Below, in pieces: positions 1-49,213 of a DNA stretch of 64,000 nucleotides; the stretch's first letter is position 1, and every line of letters begins with the position of its first letter. The position numbers and the translations under genes were made by a program. The notes beneath the pieces were generated by a model. That model did not search any database. It had not been told where the DNA came from and saw nothing but the letters and a program-made list of their open reading frames with translations. The stretch lies in NCBI RefSeq assembly GCF_028389875.1, contig NC_084665.1, positions 126,147,602 to 126,211,601 on the forward strand. Reading direction: 5' to 3'. This DNA comes from Rhea pennata (Eukaryota; Chordata; Aves; Rheiformes; Rheidae).

Positions 1-709
1 GGCATCCTGCTTCGGGCCTCTCGTGCCAGGCAGCACGGCCAGCTCTTGTGCTGGGCTCTCCGGAGGGGGGCGGTTTGGGGGTTCCCCCTCCACACGCACT
101 GCCGACATGCAAAGCCTGCAGGCCAGGTCCCGTGCCAGGTGGGAACGGGGGCCAGCTCTGCGGATTTGGTCCAGCCCACGTCTCTTCTGAGGGAAGCACC
201 TTCTGAGTAGAGAAAAGCCCGGAGCAAGAGTAGGGGGGGGGCCGATCTGCTCCTGATGGTGGGCGCTTGTGGTGTGACAGGAGTCACTGGACGGAATCTT
301 TCAGCAGCAGAAACATGCCGGGGTTCAGCCGTGGACTGGCCATGACAAAGAGCTGATCGTTCTCGTGGGGCTGAAGATGCTCTTGTGACAGCTCCCCCGC
401 AGAGGTGGCTTTCCCGGCAGAGGCTTTTTTCTCTTCCAAGCTGTCTCTGCCGGACTTCAGGCTGGCTTGGGAAGGAGGGCATTCAAACACAGTGGCTTCA
501 CCTGTCCCTCGCTTCCTTCTGGAAGAGAGCAGGCACGACTCCGCTCAAGTCAAGTCAGGGGGGTCCGCAGGGCTAAAAGTGGGGGTGCGTTAGGAACTAG
601 CAGGTTGCTACCAGTAACTGCCGGTTGCTACGTGGAGCAACAGTGAGATCCTGAGGCAAGCAAAGCAGAGGGCGCGTCCGAGTCAGAAGTGGTCCGATTC
701 TTTGTGCAG
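1..709. other. No recognisable exon; region 5' of the TAGAP-like exons
   Basis: GC-rich sequence immediately before the first recognisable RhoGAP exon. TAGAP proteins have an N-terminal region before the RhoGAP domain, and I looked for it here on the plus strand. None of the open frames resembles it, so the earlier exons probably lie outside the window or are lost. Short open frames are present on both strands but show no family signature. Confidence 0.5.
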
Positions 710-2793
710 GATCTCCTGGCTGTATTGTACGGGAAAGGGCCCGCCACTGAGGGCGTCTTCAGGAAAAAGGCCAATGAGAAGGCTGGCCAGGAGCTAAAGG
801 AGGTCCTAAGCCAGGGCGAGAACGCCGATCTGGACAGCAGACCCGTGCCCCTCGTGGCGGTGGTGCTGAAGGTGAATTCCTCTGACTCCCCGAGCACACG
901 GCTCCCCGAGCACGAGGCTAATCTGCAGGGGCCCCTCGCAGTGCCTCCACTGAGCTCGGTGCCGCTCAGAGCTCAAAGCGTGCCGAAGCCAAACTCAGTG
1001 GCGCAGGCTCAGGACACTCTGGCATTTTTCCTCTCCCTCAGGTTTTCCTGAGCTCCCCAAGTTCGGCCCCTGATTCTCTGCATGCCCATGGGAAACTCAC
1101 TTCCTCCACCGCCTCCTCAGCCTCCTGCTCTCCTCAGAGAGGGCTGCTGAGACAGAGGCCTGCACCAAAGGCTCACAGATGAGCTCGCTCCCGCTCCTGC
1201 ACTAACACCAGTGCCCTTGGCACACACTCACACAGCCCCCTGCACGCTCAGAGCTCAGCAGCACCTTTGGGAGCACGTAGCATGAAGCAAGCTGCCTGCT
1301 CATGAGCTCAGGTCACGGCGATACTCCCTCTCTGCTCAATGCCAGTGTTGAGAGCATCATCTAAGTAGCTTGGCCTTGCAGGACTTCCTCCGCAGCATCC
1401 CCTCCAAACTTCTCTCGGACCACCTCTACGACGACTGGATGCTAGCGCTGGAGAAGCCAAGTCAGCAGGCCAAAATTGACAGCCTGAAAGAGTAAGCTTT
1501 TGAACCACTCCCGCTCTTTGGGAGAGAACTAAGGCTTACTCCAACAAGGAAGGAGTGGTCCCTGCACCCTGCAGTGTTAACGTTGCGTTTTCCTTGTGTT
1601 CCCTAGGGTAGCTGGCAGCCTGCCCACAGCAAACCTCCTCTTGCTCCAGCGTTTATTCGCTGTGCTCCACCACATTAGTGAGAACGTGGAGACCAGTGGA
1701 ATGGATGCAAGCAACCTCGCTGTCTGTGTGGGGCCCAGCATGCTGAGCCCCGGGGCGGACAACGCGCTCTCGCTGGCAGCGCAGGAGAGGAGCGACAAGG
1801 TCTCTTGAACTCCTTCCATCCCTACCGCCTTGGGGGCAGCTCAGGGCCATCCACACAGATCCCCCTGCCCTTGCAAAAGCTCAGGGAAGCAGCACCTCTG
1901 GTCATCGGGGGTGCCCCTTGCTGGGGCTCTCTGCTCCAGGACCAGCAGATCTCTGAAATCAGGGGTTTTGTGTGTGCAGGTGACAGCCTTGGTAGAATTC
2001 CTCATAGACAACTGCCGAGCAATATTTGGAGAGGACATCAGCTTGCCTTTCAGTCGCTCGGCCGAGGAATCACCGGAGGACACAGGCAGCTCCACAGGTA
2101 GGAGGGTGGACTGAGGACGGTTACAGGCCAGGGCTGCTGCCTGACGTTCTTGAACTGGAGGTCGGAAGTCATCTGTGGAAGTGCAGGGAGCTGCAGAGGG
2201 TTTACTATGGCATTGCAGTGTTTTCCCCTAGAACACTTTCCAGGAGTCCAGAAGGACAGCGCTCACAGACAGCATTCATTCCAGGTGGCAAACGCCTGTG
2301 CAGCTCTGCCCCTCACCTCGTTGCTAGCTATGGTGGAGGCTGCACTCTCGCAGGAACCTGCCCTTTGCGCTGCCTTAGCTTCTCCTCTAGCACACAGCAG
2401 GAAGGTTGTCCTTAGCCAAGTGCGTGGTTCCGCAGGGGAAGTCGCCTTGTGTCTTCAGACAGGGCCTGAAAACCACCTAACCGTCTCTTTCTCTGCCCAG
2501 AACACGCAGGGGCTCCCGAGCACAGTGATTCTGCCTGGGAGAGGCCAGAGCCGGGAGCTGTCGGCAGCCGCCCGGCCCTGGAGATGGAGCAGCCCAGCGG
2601 GAGGAGCAGCAGTGCTAACAGGCCCTGTCCAAGCTGTGCCTCAGCCCCTCCCCTCAGCCCTTTTACAAGTGGCATCAGCAGCGTGGACAGGAGGTTCTCG
2701 GAGCCGCGCCTGTCCTTCCACAGCCGCTGTGAAGGGAGGCCGAGGGAGCAGGAGCCGAGCAAACGTGCGGGCAACTTCCCCATTCGGCAGTAA
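710..2793 (+). CDS. TAGAP: TAGAP-like RhoGAP gene, five 3' exons, short C-terminus
   Basis: RhoGAP-domain protein that would speed GTP hydrolysis on Rho-family GTPases; TAGAP is a T-cell activation gene. Exons are 710-871, 1382-1491, 1607-1799, 1980-2097 and 2501-2793; the reading phases join correctly throughout. Exon 1 carries GPATEGVFRKKANEK, which holds the candidate arginine-finger R. Exon 3 carries MDASNLAVCVGPSML and exon 4 LVEFLIDNC, both RhoGAP/TAGAP hallmarks. The last exon keeps the RRFSEP stretch seen in mammalian TAGAP, then stops about 20 codons later, whereas human TAGAP continues for several hundred residues. The donor after exon 3 is AAG|GTCTCT, which is weak. The start and N-terminal exons are not visible. 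A lineage-specific TAGAP paralogue, or a truncated copy on its way to a pseudogene, fits as well as the orthologue. GC content is much higher than in the defensin block downstream. Confidence 0.75.
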
Positions 2794-8278: not shown

Positions 8279-8351
8279 GGGCCAGTGGCGCAATGGACAA
8301 CGCGCCTGACTACGGATCAGGAGATTGCAGGTTCGACTCCTGCCTGGTTCG
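8279..8351 (+). tRNA. tRNA-Arg (anticodon ACG)
   Basis: 73-base cloverleaf starting GGGCCAGTGGCGCAATGGA. The anticodon arm is CCTGA-CTACGGA-TCAGG with ACG; the T arm is GCAGG-TTCGACT-CCTGC. The acceptor stem closes GGGCCAG with CTGGTTC using two G-T wobbles at pairs 2-71 and 3-70, and the discriminator is G. A and B boxes are intact. It is close to vertebrate tRNA-Arg-ACG, which reads CGU (and CGC/CGA through inosine). Confidence 0.95.
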
Positions 8352-8354
8352 ACC

Positions 8355-8358
8355 TTTT
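8355..8358 (+). terminator. Pol III T4 terminator of tRNA-Arg
   Basis: Four T residues begin four bases after the tRNA 3' end, the usual place for a Pol III stop. The second tRNA-Arg lacks such a close T run. Confidence 0.7.
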
Positions 8359-8359
8359 C

Positions 8360-9185
8360 CTTTGTACAGCTTGGCCACAGTGGAGATGGCCCTGGATTCT
8401 CCTTGGTGGCCACCATTGCCTGGTGTTTCTCCCAGTCAGCTGGCAGACAATTATGGCATCAAGCAACAGACTCTGGAGGAGTGGAGTCTTACCCACAGTA
8501 GAGGACAGTCGGGGACCACTGCATTTGAGACCATTACATCTGCTCTCATTCTGGACACACAGAAGGACTGCTGCTTTGGTAGGCTGTGTGTCCCATGTGC
8601 AAATACTGGTAGGAAGGGTGAGGCACTAAAGGAGGAGCACAGGAGGGAGAGAGGAATGAAGAAGGAGAGAAGGAGGCTGTAGGCATGAGTTGCAAAGAGA
8701 AGCCTGACAGATAACACAGTCTTTAGCACATAGCAGAGTTTTAGAAGACCGTGAGAAACCATAGGGGGCTATGAGAACTGATGTAGAAATAGTGTGGATG
8801 TTCTAAACATAACAAATCCTGTCATCTGTTGGAACAACCCCTCCCAGCTTCTCAATAGTCTTGACCTAGCTGGATCCCCTGAGGAGAGATGCAGCCATTC
8901 AGGTGTGAGGTATGGGAGTACCTGGTGCCTCTCTTCCACATCAGATAAAGGAAAGGAGTAAAGGTGTCCTCTGCTGTAAAAGGTGTATCTGCTCAAGCTG
9001 CTGAAGATGTAGGACAAAGTGAGCAGTTTGGTGCTATCAGAGAGGACAAACAGGAGAGCAGCAAGATTTTTGCAGGAACCCTGCAGAACCAGGGCATAAG
9101 CATAGGACAGAGAAAGAGTAAGGCTGTGTGTGGGGAAGCAAGAGACTCCCTTAGTGATGGAGGCAGGAAGCCTGTGACATGCCCC
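8360..9185. other. No gene seen between tRNA-Arg and CR1 ORF1 remnant
   Basis: The long open frame on the minus strand over 8769-9335 overlaps recognisable CR1 sequence at its upstream end and shows no domain, so I do not call it a gene. Part of this stretch may be more decayed CR1 5' sequence leading into the ORF1 remnant. Confidence 0.4.
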
Positions 9186-9189
9186 AAGA

Positions 9190-9475
9190 GGCAGAAGGCT
9201 CTTTCTGGACCTATATAGAGGTGATTTACAGGGAGGGGATTTGGTCTGGGTGAGATTAGGAGGAGGATGGTTCACCAGGGAAGTACCTGGGTGTGCCTGA
9301 CTTGTTGTACAGCAAGATAAGACAGTGGGTGGCAATTGTTGGAGACTCCTTTTAGCATGGAACAGAGGCCCAGTACCCTGACCTGTAATGCTGGGTAGAG
9401 ACTACTGGGGCTCATTGGCTTCCAGACTATTCCCAGTTGGTTCACGTTCACATGGGCACCAGGGATGCTGTACTG
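9190..9475 (+). mobile_element. CR1 LINE ORF1 (5'-region) remnant
   Basis: Bases 9330-9370 decode as VAIVGDS followed by a stop and HGTEA, and 9420-9470 decode as FPDYSQLVHVHMGT. These match the esterase-like part of CR1 ORF1 (VAIVGDSLLRGTEA and the later HVGTNDA region). It has stop codons and gaps, and breaks off at about 9475. Most genomic CR1 copies keep only the 3' end, so a 5' piece is less common. It lies between tRNA genes. Confidence 0.7.
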
Positions 9476-9544
9476 TACCTAACACAGGCTAGCTCAAAGG
9501 AAAAGCACAGGCAATACAGAGGAAACTCAGTGCAGCCATAAGTC

Positions 9545-9616
9545 TGACCCCGGTGTGATTCGAACACACAACCTTCTGATCTGGAGTCAGACGCGCTGCC
9601 CTTGCGCCACGAGGTC
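9545..9616 (-). tRNA. tRNA-Trp (anticodon CCA)
   Basis: 72-base cloverleaf on the minus strand, 5' end at 9616, starting GACCTCGTGGCGCAAGGG. The anticodon arm is TCTGA-CTCCAGA-TCAGA; the T arm is GTGTG-TTCGAAT-CACAC; the acceptor GACCTCG pairs with CGGGGTC (one wobble); the discriminator is A. It is nearly identical to vertebrate tRNA-Trp-CCA and is the only intact tRNA-Trp in the window. Confidence 0.95.
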
Positions 9617-9724
9617 AGGGGTGGAGGGATGCAGCACCCAGGCATGGACCACAATGTGAGTGACGGGGAAGTGCTTACCATGGGCACCACCCCAGAGGTG
9701 TCTGGATGCCCCCCAACAGAGTTG

Positions 9725-9781
9725 CAGTGACATGCTGGAGGAAGCTTACTGTGGTGCAGGACTGGGAGGGAGAAGGGACAT
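9725..9781 (+). repeat. 57-base direct repeat, copy 1
   Basis: Begins CAGTGACATGCTGGAGGAAG and recurs at 10783 with about one mismatch. This copy lies 30 bases before the second tRNA-Arg, so the repeat marks the edge of a duplicated tRNA unit. Confidence 0.9.
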
Positions 9782-9810
9782 GCTGGGAGCATCAGACTCT
9801 GTGGTGGCCA

Positions 9811-9883
9811 GGGCCAGTGGCGCAATGGATAACGCGCCTGACTACGGATCAGGAGACTGCAGGTTCGACTCCTGCCTGGCTCG
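9811..9883 (+). tRNA. tRNA-Arg (anticodon ACG), second copy
   Basis: 73 bases, four differences from the copy at 8279. All four arms pair; the acceptor GGGCCAG/CTGGCTC is fully Watson-Crick, unlike the first copy. The flanks GGCCA immediately before and a CAGC-TGG stretch after it also resemble the first copy, which indicates duplication of a longer unit. The nearest T4 on the plus strand is about 60 bases downstream. Confidence 0.95.
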
Positions 9884-10782
9884 CTCTGTTCCTGCTCGCA
9901 GCCTGGATGTGGTGGAGGCTGATGGGAATGGGGCTGTGCTGATGAGCTTTTGGAAGTGGTGGGGCTCCAGCACTAATCCTTCTCTGGCTATTGCCTCTCT
10001 TTCTCATATGTTCTGCCAACAAGACCTTTACCTGTTGGAAATCCATCAATTGTTTTCTCAAAAGTAGCTATTGCCACATTTTTCATTAATGTGGTATTTC
10101 ATCTGAGTTTCTTTTAGGACCAGGTACAGGCAGGGTAGCAGGGCCTTTCTGACTCCCATTTCCTTTCCCTTTCAATCCGGTGTTTTCTACTCAACCTATC
10201 TCTGGTTTTGCTCCACCTCCATTTCATCTTTCATCATTCCTTTCTGCTCTATTTTCCATCTAGTGTCACAAATTCTGACATGTTTGCACATAATTCCTGC
10301 TTGTCTCAGAGAGCATGTTAAAGACCTTAGAATGAGAGCTCTGACACCATCACCTAGTATGGCTCTTTTCTTCTTAAGAAAATAAACAGTTTAATATAAA
10401 TATGCAACACTTGCAATACAGAATTTATTGTTCTTGCTATCTTTACTGAAAGAAGATAAAAATACGAAATAATCATTAATAAATGTAAATAAAAATATAG
10501 TGTACAAATAAGGAATGTTATTAGTGCTAGTTCAATAAATGTAAATATTTTCTGCAGTGGATATACTTATAGTTATGCTTAAGATGGTTGACCTTGACTG
10601 CATAGACAATGAGCAAGTCTGAAGGTGTAGAAAAGAGCCAGGCACCTATTTTTTCTTCCCTCTGAGCAACCACTGTCCACAAGAATGACCTTACAGCCTC
10701 TTCCTCTGCCAATATTTCCCATTTCAAGCCTCCCACAAGAGGGAGCCATGAACTAGCTCATGGACTGCAGAGGCTGCAAAGC

Positions 10783-21060: not shown

Positions 21061-21231
21061 TGTGCAGACAGCGGGACTTTCCATGTAATGGACACTATCC
21101 AGTGTGGTTTGAGAAGAGGCAGCTGCAGACATTACTGCCATGTAAATGAGTATCTGACTGGAAGCTGCTTCTATAAAAAATACAAGTGCTGTAAGAGATA
21201 CTCAGAAATATTCTATATTCCTAAAAGCTAA
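19010..21231 (+). CDS. Unassigned cationic beta-defensin
   Basis: Signal exon 19010-19064 (MSSYLLIALLFLIFQHFP, donor GTAAAT, phase 1) and cysteine exon 21068-21231 (acceptor TATGTGCAG). The mature core has spacing 6-3-9-6: CGLRRGSC, RHY, C, nine residues, C, FYKKYK, CC. Net charge is about +5. AvBD13 has the same spacing, but its orthologue is at 47.5 kb and the residues differ. Two small in-frame exons may lie in the intron: 19422-19442 (21 bases, phase 1 to 1, GPVFQDP) and 20760-20784 (25 bases, strong sites). The 25-base exon keeps frame only if the last exon starts at 21072, a second acceptor four bases downstream. Polyadenylation signal at 21611. Secreted antimicrobial peptide by family; I cannot equate it with any of AvBD1-14. 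Confidence 0.8.
21026..21060 (+). repeat. (TTTA)n microsatellite
   Basis: About eight TTTA units immediately before the acceptor of the cysteine exon at 21068, where they serve as most of its pyrimidine-rich tract. Confidence 0.9.
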
Positions 21232-25077: not shown

Positions 25078-26353
25078 ATGAAGCTCTCTTCCCACCTCAT
25101 GACTGTTCTCCTCTTCCTCCTTCAGGCTGTTTCAGGTAAGAGACAAGACCCACACCAGTGTCTGTCCATGTGAGGCAGTGAATCTTGTTGCATAGGAAGC
25201 ACAATGGTGCAGTCTACACTTCTCCATGCTCCTTACATGAAAGCTGTTTCCTATTTCTCAGTGCAAAACCAGAAATGAGCAGTCAACCTGCAGTGGCTAG
25301 AGGTTAAACCAGAACTGTCTCACAGAAAGCAGTACAGGGTGCTGGCTCTTATGACTCTGAAGTCTCTTTATGCCACTTTATGGCACTGATGAAAGAAGGC
25401 ACCACAGAAATGATCTGCTTCTTCTTATCCTAAGGTCACAAGTCCTTTCCTTTGTGTATGGTAGGAGAGGGGTAGAAGTGTTTTCCTGCATTGCTCAAGT
25501 TAAACAACACCGGTGAAGCTGTCTTTAGTTTGCTGAGTACGCTGGTTCCACTTTACCAGCCCTCCTGTTGACGCTGATTCATTTACTAACTGTGCTTTTA
25601 GCCCAGCTTTTCTTCATACCCAATGAAATACTATGTCTTGGAGAAAGGCTTTTGGGAAGGAAGGAACTAGACAAATATGTTGTCCCTGCTAACTTGGCCA
25701 AATACCAACATTTGATCTTAAGTCATAGGTAGATCTCTGGGTGTAGGAAAACCTTACTGTTCACTTGCATGACCTGCCCGCTGCATTGCAGCCCTGTTCC
25801 TACCCATCACAACATGAATATAATCAGAAACTCTCCATCAATAGCTACCTTTTTCTCTAGTTGTACAAAGAACTTCCTTGGAGTCCTATGAAGTTCCATG
25901 AGGCTTCTGAAAATCATTGGAAAGGCTGCCTTTGGCTTTGGGAGCATTTGTAACAGAGCTCTGACTGGAGTCCATGGGTTTCAGCAGGGAGAAAAACATG
26001 AGAAATGGACTGAATCCCATTCTTTCTATAGGTCTTGGCTTGCCTAAAGACACCTTACATTGTGTTGCCTACCATGGTTTCTGTTTCCATTCAAAAGCCT
26101 GCCCAGAGCCTTTTATTGCATTTGGAACTTGCTCTCGGCATCAGAAAACTTGCTGCATAGGTATGTATGTGTGGAAACCCTGTCTGAGCAGGCAATGTTT
26201 GGAAAGACAATTAGAAAAGTTAGGGAAAACATTCTTACTCTATTTGTCTGCAAATACTCTAAGCAATCTCCTTCCACCTACACAGATGGATCAGACTGTT
26301 TCTGCACTAATGGCAGCACGGAGCACAAGAACATAATTATCATTCTGTGCTGA
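25078..26353 (+). CDS. AvBD11: AvBD11, first defensin domain with alternative terminal exon
   Basis: Secreted avian beta-defensin 11, an egg-associated antimicrobial peptide that normally has two defensin domains in tandem. Signal exon 25078-25135 (MKLSSHLMTVLLFLLQAVS, phase 1). Domain-1 exon 26032-26160: LGLPKDTLHC leads into spacing 6-5-9-6, with FIAFGTCSRHQKTCC close to chicken AvBD11. The exon ends in phase 1 (ATA G|GTATGT). The next acceptor that keeps frame is 26286-26353, which adds about 22 residues (DGSDCFCTNGSTEHKNIIII, then LC) and stops; AATAAA follows at 26386. The expected domain-2 exon is at 27220 but begins in phase 0. As drawn the protein is 84 residues with one full domain. 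Whether the second domain is ever joined depends on splicing that I cannot see. Confidence 0.85.
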
Positions 26354-26385
26354 ACAAATGCCACGTAGCCCAACATCCTGTCTCC

Positions 26386-26391
26386 AATAAA
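26386..26391 (+). promoter_or_regulatory. Polyadenylation signal after the alternative AvBD11 exon
   Basis: AATAAA 33 bases past the TGA at 26351-26353. Its presence makes the short terminal exon a plausible 3' end for AvBD11. Confidence 0.55.
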
Positions 26392-27219
26392 ACAGATATG
26401 CAGGGAAAAAATAAAAAAAATCAGGGCCCCACAGACTGATCCCTCCTTGATACATCTTTCCAGTTTTCTATAATCATCTCTTGGGAGACTTCTAATTGCA
26501 TCCACACTGAGGTGTTTACAAAGCTCCAACCGACCTTTACCCTGTGAATTCGTCTAATCCTATTTTGGATTATTTTTGGAGCTCCTCAATAGTCAACAAA
26601 TTCTACAGTTTCATTACATGTTTTATGCAAACTGTGTTAATCAGACCTAAAGTTCATCTAATACAGCATCCTACATCTGACCATGGTCAGAACTGGATGT
26701 TCCTGTATGATTACTGGCATGTTTGTGTGAGTGTGTGTGAGTGCACGTGTAAAATGAATATAATAAACATCACAGCTATATAATCATGCAACCTGATATA
26801 GTCTCCTTGCTTTCAAGAATTTAAAGGTCAGGACTTCAAGACTCTGGTATCTTTGTGTTTAAAAGTTCTCACTGGCTTTTTCCTTCTTAAATTAGGTATT
26901 GTTTGTTTTAAAACCTTTTGTCTCATAACTTCATTCATTTCTATCTACTTAGATATTGCCAATATAATGAGTAATCATGCCCCATCTAGCTTTTTCAGAT
27001 TTTTATAATATCCCTCCTTCAGTTGTTTCTTTTCTAAACTATTAAGTCACAAATTCCTTTTCTTAAAGGAGATTTGGTTATCCATATGATCCTTCCTTGT
27101 GTCCTTTTGGAGACAGAGTAACCAGAACTTCATGAAACTTTCCATGTATGAGTGTACGACTGCTTCAAATGTTGATGTAATGATGTTTTCTGTTTAGACT
27201 TCAATCTTTTTCATTCCAG

Positions 27220-27348
27220 ACTACATCAAACTTCCATATTTGTAAAGATGAAGGGGGTCATTGCATACCTCCAGAAATCAAATGTCTGCAAGAACAGCTG
27301 GGACTTTGTCCTCACAAAGAATGGAAATGCTGCAAAGAAATGCAATAA
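27220..27348 (+). pseudogene. AvBD11: AvBD11 second defensin domain exon, out of phase
   Basis: After the acceptor TTTTTCATTCCAG the frame starting ACT reads TTSNFHICKDEGGHC, then a domain with spacing 6-6-7-6 ending KCCKEMQ and TAA, a clear match to the second domain of AvBD11. This frame begins in phase 0, but the domain-1 donor at 26160 leaves phase 1; direct joining gives nine codons ending in TAA. A two-base loss at the exon start would explain it. A weak phase-0 donor (GTGTGG, at about 26169) could rescue the join. AATAAA overlaps the stop codon. The domain residues themselves look well kept, so the break is recent or splicing is unusual. Confidence 0.7.
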
Positions 27349-27349
27349 A

Positions 27350-30300
27350 AACTTCAGTGAGTTGCAGAAACCCACAGAAATTCATGCATGAGAAGACAAG
27401 CAAGTTTTCTTCCTGGTGTTGTAAAGAAGCTGTCTACCTTTCCCAACATATAATGTAATTTACTTGAGACAGCATGCTTCTTCCTCTACATAACCAAAAC
27501 AATAAATACTAAATAAACAAGTATAGCAAAAAATATATATGGAAAGAGGCAGAATGTCTTTCTCTTGCAACTCCCTTCAGAAATCCACAGAAACATAGCT
27601 ATAATATTCCTGGAAACCACATCCCCTTGTAATCTATACTTTACCTCCCTTCCTTTTTTGTCCTGCTATGTGGTTTATACTGTGCTACTTTGGCTTCATG
27701 CCTATTTAAACTTTACAGTGTTCTGGGAGGTGGTTGTCATCACTCTGCCCTTGGCATTTGAGGCCCCTGAGGCTGCTGGTGCACACTGCAATGCTCAGCA
27801 TTACAGCCATGTTCCTTCAACAACCCCAGCGATGGAAGTGGGCTGTGGTGGGAAAGCCCTGGTGCCTTCCAACTGGAAATCTTTAACTGACCTCTTCCTT
27901 CAGATCACAGTCTTTGTTCACCTTCCTCAGACACAGTAAGACAAATTCCAGGAAATTCTGAATGTGCTCGACTCTTCCTTACCTGTTTATCAGCAAAAAG
28001 AGTCTCCTGGGGAGCTGAGCACCTCTCAAGATGTGTTTCCTCTGTCTGCAGTACAAAGATCTCAGTCATTTTTGGTTATTACAGTCATTTGTGCAAAGCT
28101 AGACCAGCAGACACAAGCCTTATTTATTTGCTTGTTTATTTATTTATTTGTGGAGAAAGCTATTCTTGAGAAAAACTTCTATGAGATCATCCCACACTTA
28201 CTCCAAAATAGGCTTAAATCAAACCACCCTGGATAATTCTGGATGAGGAAAAACAAGACCGTTTTGTAAAATGATGTCTTTTTCTTCTATCAAAGTGATA
28301 GAAACAGTGTGTTTTTTATAACTACCCCTCCCTGGTGTTACTGTTGAATAGCTGTACTTGTTACTGGCCTTGCAGCTGGATTTAGAGGCCTAAACATCTC
28401 TGTGCTGAACTTAACAAAAATGCATAATCTGTGTAACAAAGTGTTTGTGTAAGTGTATCTAAAAAGGCACACAACTACTACAGTTTTGGAAATGGTAGAA
28501 GAGAATCATGATTTCTTTGAATGCTGTCCACTTCATACAGGTGTAGATTATGAGCTGCTTCAGCTGGAGGGAATATTCCAGCTGTATCAAATACCTATCA
28601 TATTGCACATCTTACCTGACTGGCTGAGAGCTCAAGCATTTCCAGGCTACTGTTGATTGTTAACAAGTTTATGTTTGCGTAAATGTTTGAACATATGTTC
28701 TTGTTGTGTGAATACTTTCATGAGTAAAGCTCAGTCACAGTAACGTTTCAGGCAAAAGAAATGCTGAAAAGGCTCATATATGGCTACCTCAAACATGTGA
28801 TGTGTTGTAATTCCATAAACTTTTTTTTTTTCAGTAAACATGTTTCATCCCTATAAGTGAATGAACTATTGCTTCTCTGCTATAAAACCACTTGATTATG
28901 ACTAGCAATATGCCAGTCCTGAATGTTTATTTGATTGGCATTTCTTTCCTGTCAAATTTGTCTGAGTTGAGGTAAATGAGGAAGATTTGAATCAAGATAT
29001 ATTTTGGAATTATATGATTATATATAGTAAGCATTTGACAAGACGATGCATAACACCTACTTCTGCTGCTCACACTCCCCGGGTAGTTATGGAAGGGAAG
29101 GCATATCCTTTTGAGGGGCTAAGCTGTCTTCTTCTCTCCTTCACTGGACAGCAAGCATCAGCTATCCTTGTGTCAGTGCCCAAAGAAAACTTGTAGCTGT
29201 TGCCAGAGTCTAAATGTACTGGCAAGGAAAGGCTTGAGGAGGGAGGAGGATCTTTTTAATTAGGCCAACGGATAGAGGTGAGAAAAACCAACACATTTTC
29301 AGACACACAAAAGCCTTTCTGGAGGTCAGAAGGCTTGGATAGACCCTCCTTGGCCAAATGTCACTATTCATATCTTCTGACCCCAACAAACATGGATTTA
29401 TGAGACATATGCAGTAGTCTAAGGGTCTGCTTCAACAAAGGAGACATGCAAACCTGTTGCTCTGGCATGTGGAAATGCTTAAAAAAAAACAAAAATAAAA
29501 AACAAAAACAAAAAAAAAACAAGGAGAACATTCATGATTTATGAGCTCAAATGGGAAGTAAAAGCCTGGAAGCAGAAAAGTTTACATCTGAAGGATGAAG
29601 AAGTCTTCTTCTTGTCCTATATTAAATACAGCCATATAACTCGATCTCCTTTGACCAAAAATGCGTATGATAGAGCTGAGTGTCTTGGTCTGTTCTGGTA
29701 ACAGTTTGGTGGATGAGTCCCAAATCTGGAAGTCGAAGCAAAAGAAGGACCTTTTAAAGGTCAGTGCAAGCTGAGAAAAATACCTTGTCAACATGTACTT
29801 CATAATCTGGAAGACAGAGGTATCAAGGGGAGAGAAAAAGGAAAGACAATGTAATGTACCAGGAACCACATTTCCACTGAGCCATGGATTCTGATAATCA
29901 CCAGTTATGAATTTTAGTTCCCTGTCCCACCACCCCATAGTTAGCAAAAGCACAACCAAGGCATCAGATGTGGTCCACAAAAGTACTGAAGGTTGACAGT
30001 ATCCAGCTCCTCTCCTCCAGCAGACTCAACAGAGTCCTACAAGGACTCTGACTTCCCTCCTTGGGGCAAGGGGAAAGATAGGGTCTGCATCAGCTTGAGT
30101 GCTCAGGAGAGGGAAATCCTTCTTGGGAGAATGCTGTGGGACGAGGGGTTCTTCTCTCCAGACATGTTATGGGCACTGTGTGGTGTTGAGGAGACATGCT
30201 GCAGCTAGTTTGGGATTCAGAGCATTAGCACATTAGCACAGAAAGAGCAACCTTGAAATACAAGGAATTAGTCCAGAAAGATTCATTATACTAACGAGGT

Positions 30301-33118: not shown

Positions 33119-34514
33119 ATGAAAATCTTCTACCTTCTACTTGTTCTCTTTGAGACCTTTCTGGTCATGGCAGGTAAGCAAGAGCTGTCACTGCAGGTTT
33201 ACTTCCTGGTGGCTGAGAGAAAGAAGAAAAAGATTATCTTGATCTTCACCCTAAGATGCAGTTCCTATCACAACTGTAAAGTGAATCACAGTGAAATTTC
33301 AAGATAAAATCCTGGCTAGGGCAATGTCAGTAGCAAAATGCCTTCTACTACGGGTGAGAAGGTAGAAGGGGAGAACTGTCATCCTCTGTCCAGTCTCTAG
33401 TCATGGTTGCTGAAGAGCGACACTGTTTTAACCAGAACTAACTAGAAGCAGAACAGTCTCTCCCCTAAACTTCTGTGAAGAGATGCAGACAGATGATAGG
33501 CGGCAGAATGAAGAGTGGGAAGGGAAGTCATTTGCAAATCAATCTCAGAGGACCCTTGGACAAACAGTTGGTCCCTGCTTGAACAAAGCATTTGAGCACA
33601 TTTGGCTCTAAGTACCTGAGTTTTGTTGGTGACTTCAGAGCCCATCACAGTGCCAGCCAGAGCAATCTGAGAAGGAGAGAGGCCGGGTCTTTGCTGACCC
33701 TTACATCTTCTAAATTTGCCTATTCAGTGTTGGAAAGACTGTATCTATACTAGTAAACTAAGTAGTCCCAGAGCCTCTTCTCTAGCTCTAATGGGAAAAT
33801 GTCACAATCTGATGGTGTCTGCCCTATTAAACTCTCTTCTCCTCCAGAACAGACGTCCAAAGTGCCTTTTGGAAGCAATTTCTGATCTATGCCAGCTCCC
33901 CAGTTGTACTTGGGAACTGTTTGGGAGAGCAGCAGTTAGCCTGGACCAAAACCATCCAAGAGATGTGCTAGGAATTTCACACTGAGGGTGATGAAGTTCC
34001 AGTGTTTGTGCCCTGGTCCTGCTCTTTTCAGTAATTCTATTTTACTAGCATAGATATGCTCAAAAAGTTCAGATTTTGATAAAGGGAAAAGATGGGAGAA
34101 GAGATTAATATGTTCTTTTTCTCATTAGAAAAAAATGTTTTTTTAATGAAATATCTTGATTTATGTTCTACTCTGAGGTCCACTCAAATAGAGTAGAAGA
34201 AGTATAAACGGGCTGCAGTCTCTGCTCCTACTGAGTTTTCCCACACACAAATGCACCCCCACTATCACACCTGAATCAGTCTTTCTTGTGCTATGATATG
34301 ATATCACGGCAGTATCTCAATAAACCTATTTCCCAACTCACTGTGTTTTTTTTTTTTTTTTTTTTGAGAAGTGATAGGTGTGCCCCTGACTTGGTACACG
34401 TCCTGGTGCCTGGCAAGAGGCGGGATATGCCGATATGATGACTGTGGTGTCACGGAAGAAGAGATCGGGACTTGCCAACATTACATCATGCTCTGCTGCC
34501 GGTATATAGACTAA
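33119..34514 (+). CDS. Unassigned acidic beta-defensin
   Basis: Signal exon 33119-33173 (MKIFYLLLVLFETFLVMA, donor GTAAGC, phase 1) follows an acceptor (CCCCTTACTAG, exon start 33106), so an upstream leader exon is expected. Cysteine exon 34369-34514, after a T20 tract and GAG acceptor, has spacing 6-4-9-6: CLARGGIC, RYDD, C, nine residues with three consecutive E, C, QHYIML, CC, then RYID and stop. The protein has 66 residues. After signal removal it carries about seven acidic and three basic residues, a net charge near -4, which is unusual for a beta-defensin. GGIC and the CCR-x-x-D end recall AvBD8, whose middle spacing is 10 and last spacing 5, so orthology is doubtful. It lies between AvBD11 and AvBD12, where chicken has no further gene that I know of. 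Polyadenylation signal at 34611. Confidence 0.8.
34346..34365 (+). repeat. T20 tract at the acceptor of the acidic defensin
   Basis: Twenty T immediately before GAG|AA form the polypyrimidine tract of the cysteine exon. Length slippage here could alter splicing strength. Confidence 0.9.
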
Positions 34515-38304: not shown

Positions 38305-39198
38305 ATGAGGATCCTTTGGTTCATTTTAATTTTCATCTCTCTGGCTACTCACGGTAAGACCAGGAAGGCCAAGGGTGGTAAACAGAGGCAGCTAGGAATA
38401 GGAATAAGTTTTCACAGCTGAGTAATCAAATCAAAGTATTATAGGTACTGGGGGGGGGGGGGGAGAGGTGTCCTTAGATTTCTGGATGAAAAAATGGGTC
38501 AGGCACTTCAGCAAAATGTGTAATTACATCCCTAGGGGTAATGCAGGAATGAGGAGGGAAATAGCTGTGAAAATGGGACATTGCTCTGCCTATCTAGGAA
38601 TAGAGTGTTTGGGCAAACCTTAGAGGATATATCTTTTATCTCTGCTCTGGTGCTCATTTTTAGAGGTTCTGGAAAACTGTTTCTTCCTTTTCTCAGACTG
38701 CAGTTGTTTCTTTGATAGGGTGAGAACAACTGTTCTGACATCCAGTGTCTTTAACAATATCCTGAAAAAATGATTGCATGACAAAATGCTGAGTGAGACT
38801 GGGTCTGAATGTTGGGGGGTGGGGTGGAGTGGTTTTTTTTTTTTTTTTTTTTTTTTTTTGACAAAAACAGGTATATGAAGCTGTTTTCAGATATCTGATA
38901 TCCCTTTGAGATAGGGATCCTGAGCGTGCTCTTTGAGATTTGCAGCTCAAGCTCCATGCGTGCTCACAGTCTTGCTTTGGCAGACTAGACACACTGTGTC
39001 AGAGAAACTCCATGTATTTTATCTACCAATTTGCTGCTTCTTTGTACAGGAAATGCTCATGGACCAGATAGCTGTAACCACGAAGGGGGCTTGTGCAGAG
39101 TTGGAAACTGCGTTGCTGGTGAATATCTGGCTAGTTACTGCTTTGAACCTATCATTCTGTGTTGTAAAAGTTTGTCACTGACTACTGCAAAGAGCTGA
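38305..39198 (+). CDS. AvBD12: AvBD12
   Basis: Secreted avian beta-defensin 12. Signal exon 38305-38353 (MRILWFILIFISLATH, phase 1) in an exon starting at 38292 after TGCTGTTTTCCAG. Cysteine exon 39050-39198: GPDSCNHEGGLCRVGNC and CFEPIILCCK match chicken AvBD12 at most positions, spacing 6-4-9-6. The protein has 65 residues. The mature peptide is near neutral, as is typical of AvBD12, which is known more for chemotactic than for strong killing activity. AATAAA at 39520. The intron contains a G14 run (38450-38463) and a T27 run (38833-38859). I see no damage. Confidence 0.95.
38450..38463 (+). repeat. G14 homopolymer
   Basis: Fourteen G in the AvBD12 intron; a likely polymorphic tract, or a base-calling risk. 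Confidence 0.85.
38833..38859 (+). repeat. T27 homopolymer
   Basis: Poly(T) in the AvBD12 intron, about 190 bases before the cysteine exon. Confidence 0.9.
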
Positions 39199-47494: not shown

Positions 47495-49213
47495 ATGCGG
47501 ATCCTCCAGATGCTCTTTGCAATCATGGTCATGCTCCTCGTCCAGAACGTTCCTGGTAAGGATAAAATACTTCAGGAGTTTCTGAGGAAAAGAGACAAGA
47601 CAGGCTCCCACCCCAAAGTGTGCAAGGACAAGACAGGGCCCTCAAGTCAAGCCAAGGCTGACCTGACTCTTGCTTCCAAGGAACAAATACCTTCTGAAAT
47701 GTAGTCTTTAAGGAGTTCCTGGATGCAGAGCCTTGGCAGGAAGAGAAGGTTTTCCAGGCTCCCAGACAGTATATCCGCTTCTCTCCCTTGTCCCAAAAGC
47801 CACAAAGAGATGTAGAGTCTGAGCCAGGAGCCCAAGCTCTAACCCTGACCAGGATGCAAGTCTCTTCTCCAAAACAAGGAGAACCCCCTGAATTCTAAAG
47901 GCCTTTGCAGTCAACATGTTTAGAGGATAGTCTTTGGGGCTACCAAGGGTGACAGTACAATATTGCCTGGCAGCCTTTTCCTGATGATAGGGGTGGGGGA
48001 GGGGGTTGTTTTAGAAACCTTATGCACACGCTTTCTGGCAGAAACAAATACAGTTTTGGGGTGTGCATCAGCTGCTACTTCATGTCACAGGACATATGTG
48101 CACTACAAGGAACAGAAATTGCCAGTGAGCTGCAAAGCCAGGTAGAAAATTAAGCTCCATTCAGCTTGATTAACCTTAGCAGCCAGATTCAAATTAAACT
48201 GGCTCAAGCTATTAAATAAGACACAAGCTTGTGATGACCTTATGCCTGACTGCTTTTTAGACCAAATTTAGACACAGAATAGCACACCTGTATCTTTTGT
48301 ATAAAGCAACTAAAATTAATTCTGTAACAGGGGGTGAGCTTTGGGGAAAGGTGGGAGGAAGGACTGTTAGGTTGTTGCAGTTTTGTTTGGTCTGTCTCTT
48401 TTCTTCTGGGGTTCTGTTTCAATAGAAATGTCACATTTGTCATGGCTTTTTCACTGGCTGCTTGCACATATATTGGGAATTTAGGTGTCATCCAGCTGTA
48501 AGGTCATTATGATGTTATTAGGACTATGGTAGTGTAACTACAATGGGAATCAACCCTGACAAACAAGGGGAGACTTTCCTACTCAGCTTATTTATGTTCT
48601 TTTCTAGTTAACTCAAGTCCTAGGGACAAATGTAGGAGAGAGAAGAGTTTGCTCACTCCACTGATGGTGACTAATATTGCACTGCTATGCCTTTGAACCT
48701 TCCAAAAAAAAACCCCAAACTTCATCTTCCTGCTATGGTTAAAGAAAAACAGTACACTGAGTTTTTAGCAAGTTAAGAAAATTAAGATGACTATGTAATA
48801 AATAAAACACCTGCCTCTAAAAAGACCCTTTTCTAACTTTTGATCTTACCCAAGGGTAAGATCTTACCCATCTCACCTGACTCAGCCATCCCAAAATCTG
48901 CCATCTCATCTAGACTGGTTGTTGAGAGACACTCAGCGCTTAGTGGGAGGAGGTGCTCCTCTCAAGCACATCTGACCTTTACCATGAAGGCAACTGAATT
49001 TCCTTGTTGCCAACTGCAAGTGTTTCATTGCTCAGGCAGTGATGACACGCTGAATGGGTTCCCACATCTCCTGTCTCTTTTCCCTGTGCAGCCAGAGGTC
49101 TTTCGGACAGCCAGCAGTGCTGGAATAACCATGGCCACTGCCGGAGGCTTTGCTTCCACATGGAGCGCTGGGCAGGGAGCTGCAGCAACGGTCGCCAGCG
49201 CTGCTGCAGATGA
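47495..49213 (+). CDS. AvBD13: AvBD13
   Basis: Secreted avian beta-defensin 13. Signal exon 47495-47555 (MRILQMLFAIMVMLL..., phase 1) closely matches chicken MRILQLLFAIVVILL. Cysteine exon 49092-49213: RGLSDSQQCWNNHGHCRRLC, FHMERWAGSC and QRCCR, spacing 6-3-9-6, net charge about +5. The protein has 60 residues. TGA follows directly after CCR, whereas the chicken protein, as I remember it, continues for more than 20 residues. The first exon contains both leader and signal peptide, with the TATA box 83 bases before the ATG. AATAAA at 49332. No damage seen. Confidence 0.95.

Follow-up and report, generated by a model that had tools for sequence, protein, structure and literature searches.

AvBD11 is regarded as the only double defensin of birds and has been identified in at least 69 species, with the role of its second domain described as elusive (PMC9138766). 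In the chicken protein (gallinacin-11, VMO-II; PDB 6QEU, 6QES, 6QET), domain 1 carries most of the activities, while antiviral activity needs both domains (Guyot and others, PMC9138766). The gene is given with three coding exons (PMC4571063 Table 2), a nine-residue CC-C linker separates the two domains in birds (PMC4571063 Table 2; PMC9138766), and gene spans of 1200 and 1095 are listed for chicken and zebra finch, respectively (PMC3161384 Table 1). Loss of the gene is also on record: among 53 birds, AvBD11 is a pseudogene in two, the rifleman and the chimney swift, and was not found in two, Anna’s hummingbird and the great cormorant (Cheng and others, PMC4571063 Table 1). Outside birds, homologues from turtles carry a gap that separates C2 from C3, and the search in PMC9138766 gave no match in crocodile.

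Layout of AvBD11 and the reading frame between its domains

We examined the AvBD11 locus of Rhea pennata within a window of 64,000 nucleotides, the whole stretch of DNA analyzed here (Table 1). All three coding exons, for signal, domain 1 and domain 2, are present with their splice sites and span 2271 nt from signal start to domain-2 stop (25078-27348). Domain 1 is identical to its chicken counterpart (PDB 6qes) at 27 of 40 positions (E 1.2e-17), and domain 2 is identical to that in PDB 6qet at 28 of 41 (E 9.5e-19); turtle-to-chicken values of 2e-6 to 8e-4, from a different search and hence only roughly comparable, have been reported (PMC9138766). A motif scan recovered the spacing Cx6Cx5Cx9Cx6CC in domain 1 and Cx6Cx6Cx7Cx6CC in domain 2, both of which are shared with chicken and reported for birds (PMC9138766). 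The Pfam beta-defensin profile (PF00711) detects domain 1 with an E value of 4.6e-6 and scores domain 2 at 12.9 bits, below the cut-off of 21. Splice sites were scored with a rough matrix of vertebrate site frequencies, and all bit scores serve only to rank sites; by this measure the canonical donor after domain 1 and the acceptor of domain 2 (10.41 bits) lie at the 98.1 and 99.3 percentiles, respectively, among the GT and AG sites that the window contains.

Table 1. Features of the AvBD11 locus and its surroundings in the 64-kb window
Feature	Position	Strand	Remarks
RhoGAP-domain fragment	647-1048	+	GC-rich stretch; Pfam PF00620, E 2.6e-6
Defensin exon	21082-21231	+	C6C3C9C6CC; Pfam E 3.6e-6
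TATA-box-like TATAAA	24992..24997	+	some 80 nt before the start codon of AvBD11; putative promoter element
AvBD11 signal-peptide exon (coding part)	25078..25135	+	58 nt; ends in phase 1; donor GTAAGA; MKLSSHLMTVLLFLLQAVS plus split Gly
AvBD11 domain-1 exon	26032..26160	+	129 nt; phase 1 in and out; six-cysteine beta-defensin motif intact
Canonical donor GTATGT after domain 1	26161..26166	+	7.85 bits
Weak in-frame donor GTGTGG	26169..26174	+	exon end 26168; 3.23 bits; rejoins domain 2 with an 11-residue linker
Candidate alternative terminal exon	26286..26353	+	22 codons plus stop, DGSDCFCTNGSTEHKNIIIILC; acceptor 9.84 bits, 99.1 percentile
AATAAA after candidate exon	26386..26391	+	32 nt past the stop; A-rich downstream context
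AvBD11 domain-2 exon (coding part)	27220..27348	+	six cysteines intact; starts in phase 0; preceded by CAG
TAA in shifted frame after canonical splicing	27243..27245	+	read from sequence
Predicted 3' UTR contiguous with domain-2 exon, as in chicken mRNA	27349..27624	+	partial chicken primer matches
Two-exon defensin gene, complete	33119-33173 + 34378-34513	+	signal MKIFYLLLVLFETFLVMA, mature ...SWCLARGGICRYDDCGVTEEEIGTCQHYIMLCCRYID then stop; Pfam beta-defensin E 1.1e-7
AvBD12-like gene	38305-39198	+	signal exon and single-exon mature domain with its own stop
AvBD13-like gene	47495-49213	+	signal exon and single-exon mature domain with its own stop

The domain-1 exon ends in ...TGC TGC ATA G, followed by GTATGT, and the frame of domain 2 (TTSNFHIC...CCKEMQ, then stop) opens at the first base of its exon. 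The exon phases and the translation thus bear out the preliminary description, according to which domain 1 ends in phase 1 and domain 2 begins in phase 0; the stop that it placed after nine codons is likewise present but is itself the ninth codon, the canonical junction (26160 to 27220) reading D-Y-I-K-L-P-Y-L-stop. By frame arithmetic, the product of canonical splicing is a 70-residue precursor composed of the signal, domain 1 and the tail DYIKLPYL. Relative to the phase-1 start that the chicken protein implies, the domain-2 exon is shorter by two bases, and the canonical sites do not place both domains in a single frame separated by a nine-residue linker. The chicken sequence in the PDB, ...QKTCCV-D-TTSDFH..., has a D at the domain border; given this residue and a domain-1 exon that ends in phase 1, two bases are expected before ACT, which are absent in Rhea pennata, the ancestral presence of these bases being deduced from the chicken protein.

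The position of the break within the transcript was addressed with chicken AvBD11 mRNA primers (PMC7787727, PMC7769465, PMC6770741, PMC11987731), of which seven strings out of eight were tested. Five of the seven match the locus, beating all or nearly all of 200 shuffles, and the two that fail overlap each other. Partial matches of two primers fall at 27364-27379 and 27611-27624, both 3' of domain 2, indicating that the domain-2 exon runs directly into the 3' UTR and is the last exon of the gene.

Taking these findings together, we propose that a two-base deletion occurred at, or just after, the acceptor of the last exon of AvBD11, perhaps by slippage in an AC-AC run that formerly encoded the D-T of the interdomain linker. 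In the default mRNA, the domain-2 exon would then follow domain 1 in a shifted frame, giving the 70-residue precursor. With the early stop in the final exon, nonsense-mediated decay would not be expected; the mRNA would be stable, and a single-domain AvBD11 would be secreted. On balance, and only just, we favor this reading, i.e., a double-beta-defensin gene with a real last-exon deletion whose default splicing yields a one-domain peptide. It presupposes a genuine deletion, use of the default sites, an mRNA that is not degraded and a peptide able to fold, all of which we infer.

Candidate alternative exons and splice sites between the domains

A different source for the tail of a one-domain AvBD11 had been put forward in the preliminary description, namely, an exon in the intron between the domains that is in phase, ends in a stop and is followed by AATAAA. 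All of these elements exist in the sequence, and the sequence as given does predict a one-domain product with a new tail. This prediction holds without the alternative exon, since the normal domain-2 acceptor sits at the exon border implied by chicken and the frameshift itself supplies an eight-residue tail. We therefore regard the frameshifted domain-2 exon as the likelier source of the tail. That the intronic exon should be the main terminal exon, with the bird making domain 1 followed by DGSDCFCTNGSTEHKNIIIILC, appears very improbable, even though its in-phase acceptor is strong and two AATAAA signals lie behind its stop, the second (at 26410, 56 nt past the stop) in an ordinary downstream context (T 30%, G+T 42%, within the range of the other signals). 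The first of these signals has the poorest downstream context of the nine in the window (T 10%, G+T 30%), and the same intron holds rival acceptors at 26896, with a higher score (10.03 bits), and at 26999, with a slightly lower one (9.07 bits). Further, all 13 intron acceptors of at least 3 bits run into a stop, 10 of them within 37 codons and three at 63-64, so that an in-phase stop in this exon means little. The tail would carry three extra cysteines and a hydrophobic end (IIIIL), which is not defensin-like, and matches of the exon elsewhere in the window are confined to its A-rich part.

A strong acceptor coupled with a nearby poly(A) signal is a moderately rare combination. Overlapping windows of the same length, drawn from both strands of the whole 64-kb window with the intron included, contain an equal or better candidate in 16 of 476 cases, and dinucleotide-shuffled versions of the intron do so in 70 of 3000; with looser acceptor cut-offs, the proportion rises to between 8 and 21% for the windows and between 11 and 32% for the shuffles. 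As the exon was picked after the sequence had been seen, this rarity is a weak statistic.

A further possibility is that the deletion is real but that splicing at the weak donor (exon end 26168) puts a meaningful fraction of the mRNA back in frame, such that a double defensin persists with the linker CCIGMYTTSNFHIC of 11 residues instead of nine. Of 11 direct joins that stay in frame and retain domain 2's first cysteine (donors 26156-26499), the one from 26168 to the normal acceptor scores highest, and in rice, frame-restoring isoforms after indels are common, being seen at most loci (PMC8893660). Yet this donor lies 8 nt downstream of the strong one, its join reaches a summed 13.6 bits against 18.3 for the canonical pair, and a frame-fixing neighbor of this kind is ordinary, being found within about 60 nt at 22 of 92 strong GT sites; the rice isoforms, moreover, are low in abundance (PMC8893660). 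We accordingly deem a substantial rescue improbable, and a minor double-domain product via this donor possible. Three cassette exons that would fix the frame (both sites of at least 3 bits) were rejected as weak, the best reaching a summed 9.8 bits. The acceptor at 27198 is in the wrong phase for the canonical donor, and that at 27248 is in phase but weak (1.7 bits) and loses the first cysteine of domain 2. A strict scan of the intron for a signal exon that might mark a separate domain-2 gene found none; this negative is weak, because the same strict scan also missed the signal exon at 47495, which was recovered by a relaxed one.

Age of the break and the fate of the second domain

The domain-2 exon was originally described as well preserved, and this holds: its six cysteines are kept, it contains no stop, and its divergence from chicken is no greater than that of domain 1. 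In neutral simulations starting from the present domain 2, 14% of runs retained all six cysteines and no stop after 12 substitutions in 126 bases, as did 4% after 20, which renders a long-dead domain 2 unlikely. An intact second domain without excess divergence implies that the break is recent, that domain 2 is still being made, or that the apparent two-base loss is an error.

The last of these, in which a fault of sequencing, assembly or haplotype merging removed the two bases and the species makes an ordinary double-domain AvBD11, we consider unlikely but well worth bearing in mind. In its favor, the signal, both domains, the canonical sites and the final stop show no damage, domain 2 is as similar to chicken (28/41) as domain 1 is (27/40), and the simulations speak against a long-dead domain. 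Set against it are the losses of AvBD11 reported in other birds and the consideration that accurate reads do not typically drop two bases within a short AC-AC run that has no long homopolymer. The intact remainder of the gene and the undiverged domain 2 also fit an allele of one individual as well as a sequencing error; the sequence alone fits a real mutation and an assembly error alike. Should the shortfall of two bases prove to be an assembly error, the observation would lead to a corrected gene model and carry no further biological meaning.

Returning to a real last-exon deletion, the Rhea pennata gene would, like the AvBD11 pseudogenes of the rifleman and the chimney swift, be unable to make the full double defensin, but here only domain 2 is cut off. 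Domain 1 is intact and readable, which bears on whether the label of pseudogene is apt for this AvBD11. An intact domain 1 with a cut-off domain 2 in a bird would be a new form of the already known loss of this gene. It also resembles the state of the painted turtle homologue ENSCPBG00000020216, whose gene model has one domain and is followed by an unannotated domain-2-like exon (PMC9138766); the turtle arrangement may be ancestral or an annotation gap, whereas the Rhea pennata gene has the bird spacing and a cause at the level of the reading frame. That the locus is instead of turtle or crocodile type, with a second domain that was never joined, appears very improbable: domain 1 has the avian spacing and both domains match chicken strongly, although two defensin exons flanking AvBD11 (21082-21231 and 34378-34513) fall outside the published bird order. 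No published report of this lesion was found in the literature on AvBD11 and pseudogenes, a scope that lies largely outside subscription papers. A scan of viral contigs and genome contigs with the domain-2 pattern gave 95 and 227 pattern matches, respectively, none confirmed as a relative, and phage records gave none.

As most activities of the chicken protein reside in domain 1, a one-domain product may retain antibacterial function in Rhea pennata. A stronger version, which we hold to be doubtful, is that the frameshift turned AvBD11 back into a working single-domain defensin, with the dead domain 2 persisting as 3' untranslated sequence. In its boldest form, the intronic exon at 26286 would be the terminal exon that domain 1 possessed before two ancestral genes fused, now put to use again. 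Were the single-domain state true, it would amount to a natural removal of domain 2, and the eggs of this bird should show which functions need that domain.

The surrounding defensin cluster

A six-frame scan of the 64-kb window for cysteine motifs recovered six defensin exons, all on the forward strand, at 21103, 26061, 27241, 34407, 39073 and 49118, and the window looks like a stretch of the bird beta-defensin cluster. Those at 26061 and 27241 are the two AvBD11 domains, and those at 39073 and 49118 have cysteine spacing of the AvBD12 and AvBD13 types, respectively; the corresponding genes are putatively AvBD12 and AvBD13. A profile built from the six exons found no convincing seventh in the window, the next best hit having an E value of 0.12.

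AvBD11 and the AvBD12-like gene are separated by a complete two-exon defensin gene (33119-34513), for which the bird gene order published in PMC4571063 has no entry. In the painted turtle, the identifier of the defensin ENSCPBG00000020214 falls between the ones given to the AvBD12 and AvBD11 homologues (PMC9138766); as a counterpart of this gene it is a lead only. The exon at 21082-21231 occupies the position expected of AvBD10, and its arrangement of cysteines is listed in Table 1; the published bird order has no such gene there. Between 12000 and 21060, a relaxed scan detected no accompanying signal exon, and over 1-21000 the profile gave nothing better than an E value of 0.12, except for the start of the exon’s own reading frame.

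Toward the beginning of the window, the GC-rich RhoGAP-domain fragment is probably a copy or remnant of a RhoGAP gene. Between it and the first defensin exon, two tRNA-Arg(ACG) and one tRNA-Trp(CCA) lie within 1.6 kb (8279-9884), the two tRNA-Arg copies being 93% alike, a few flanking bases included.
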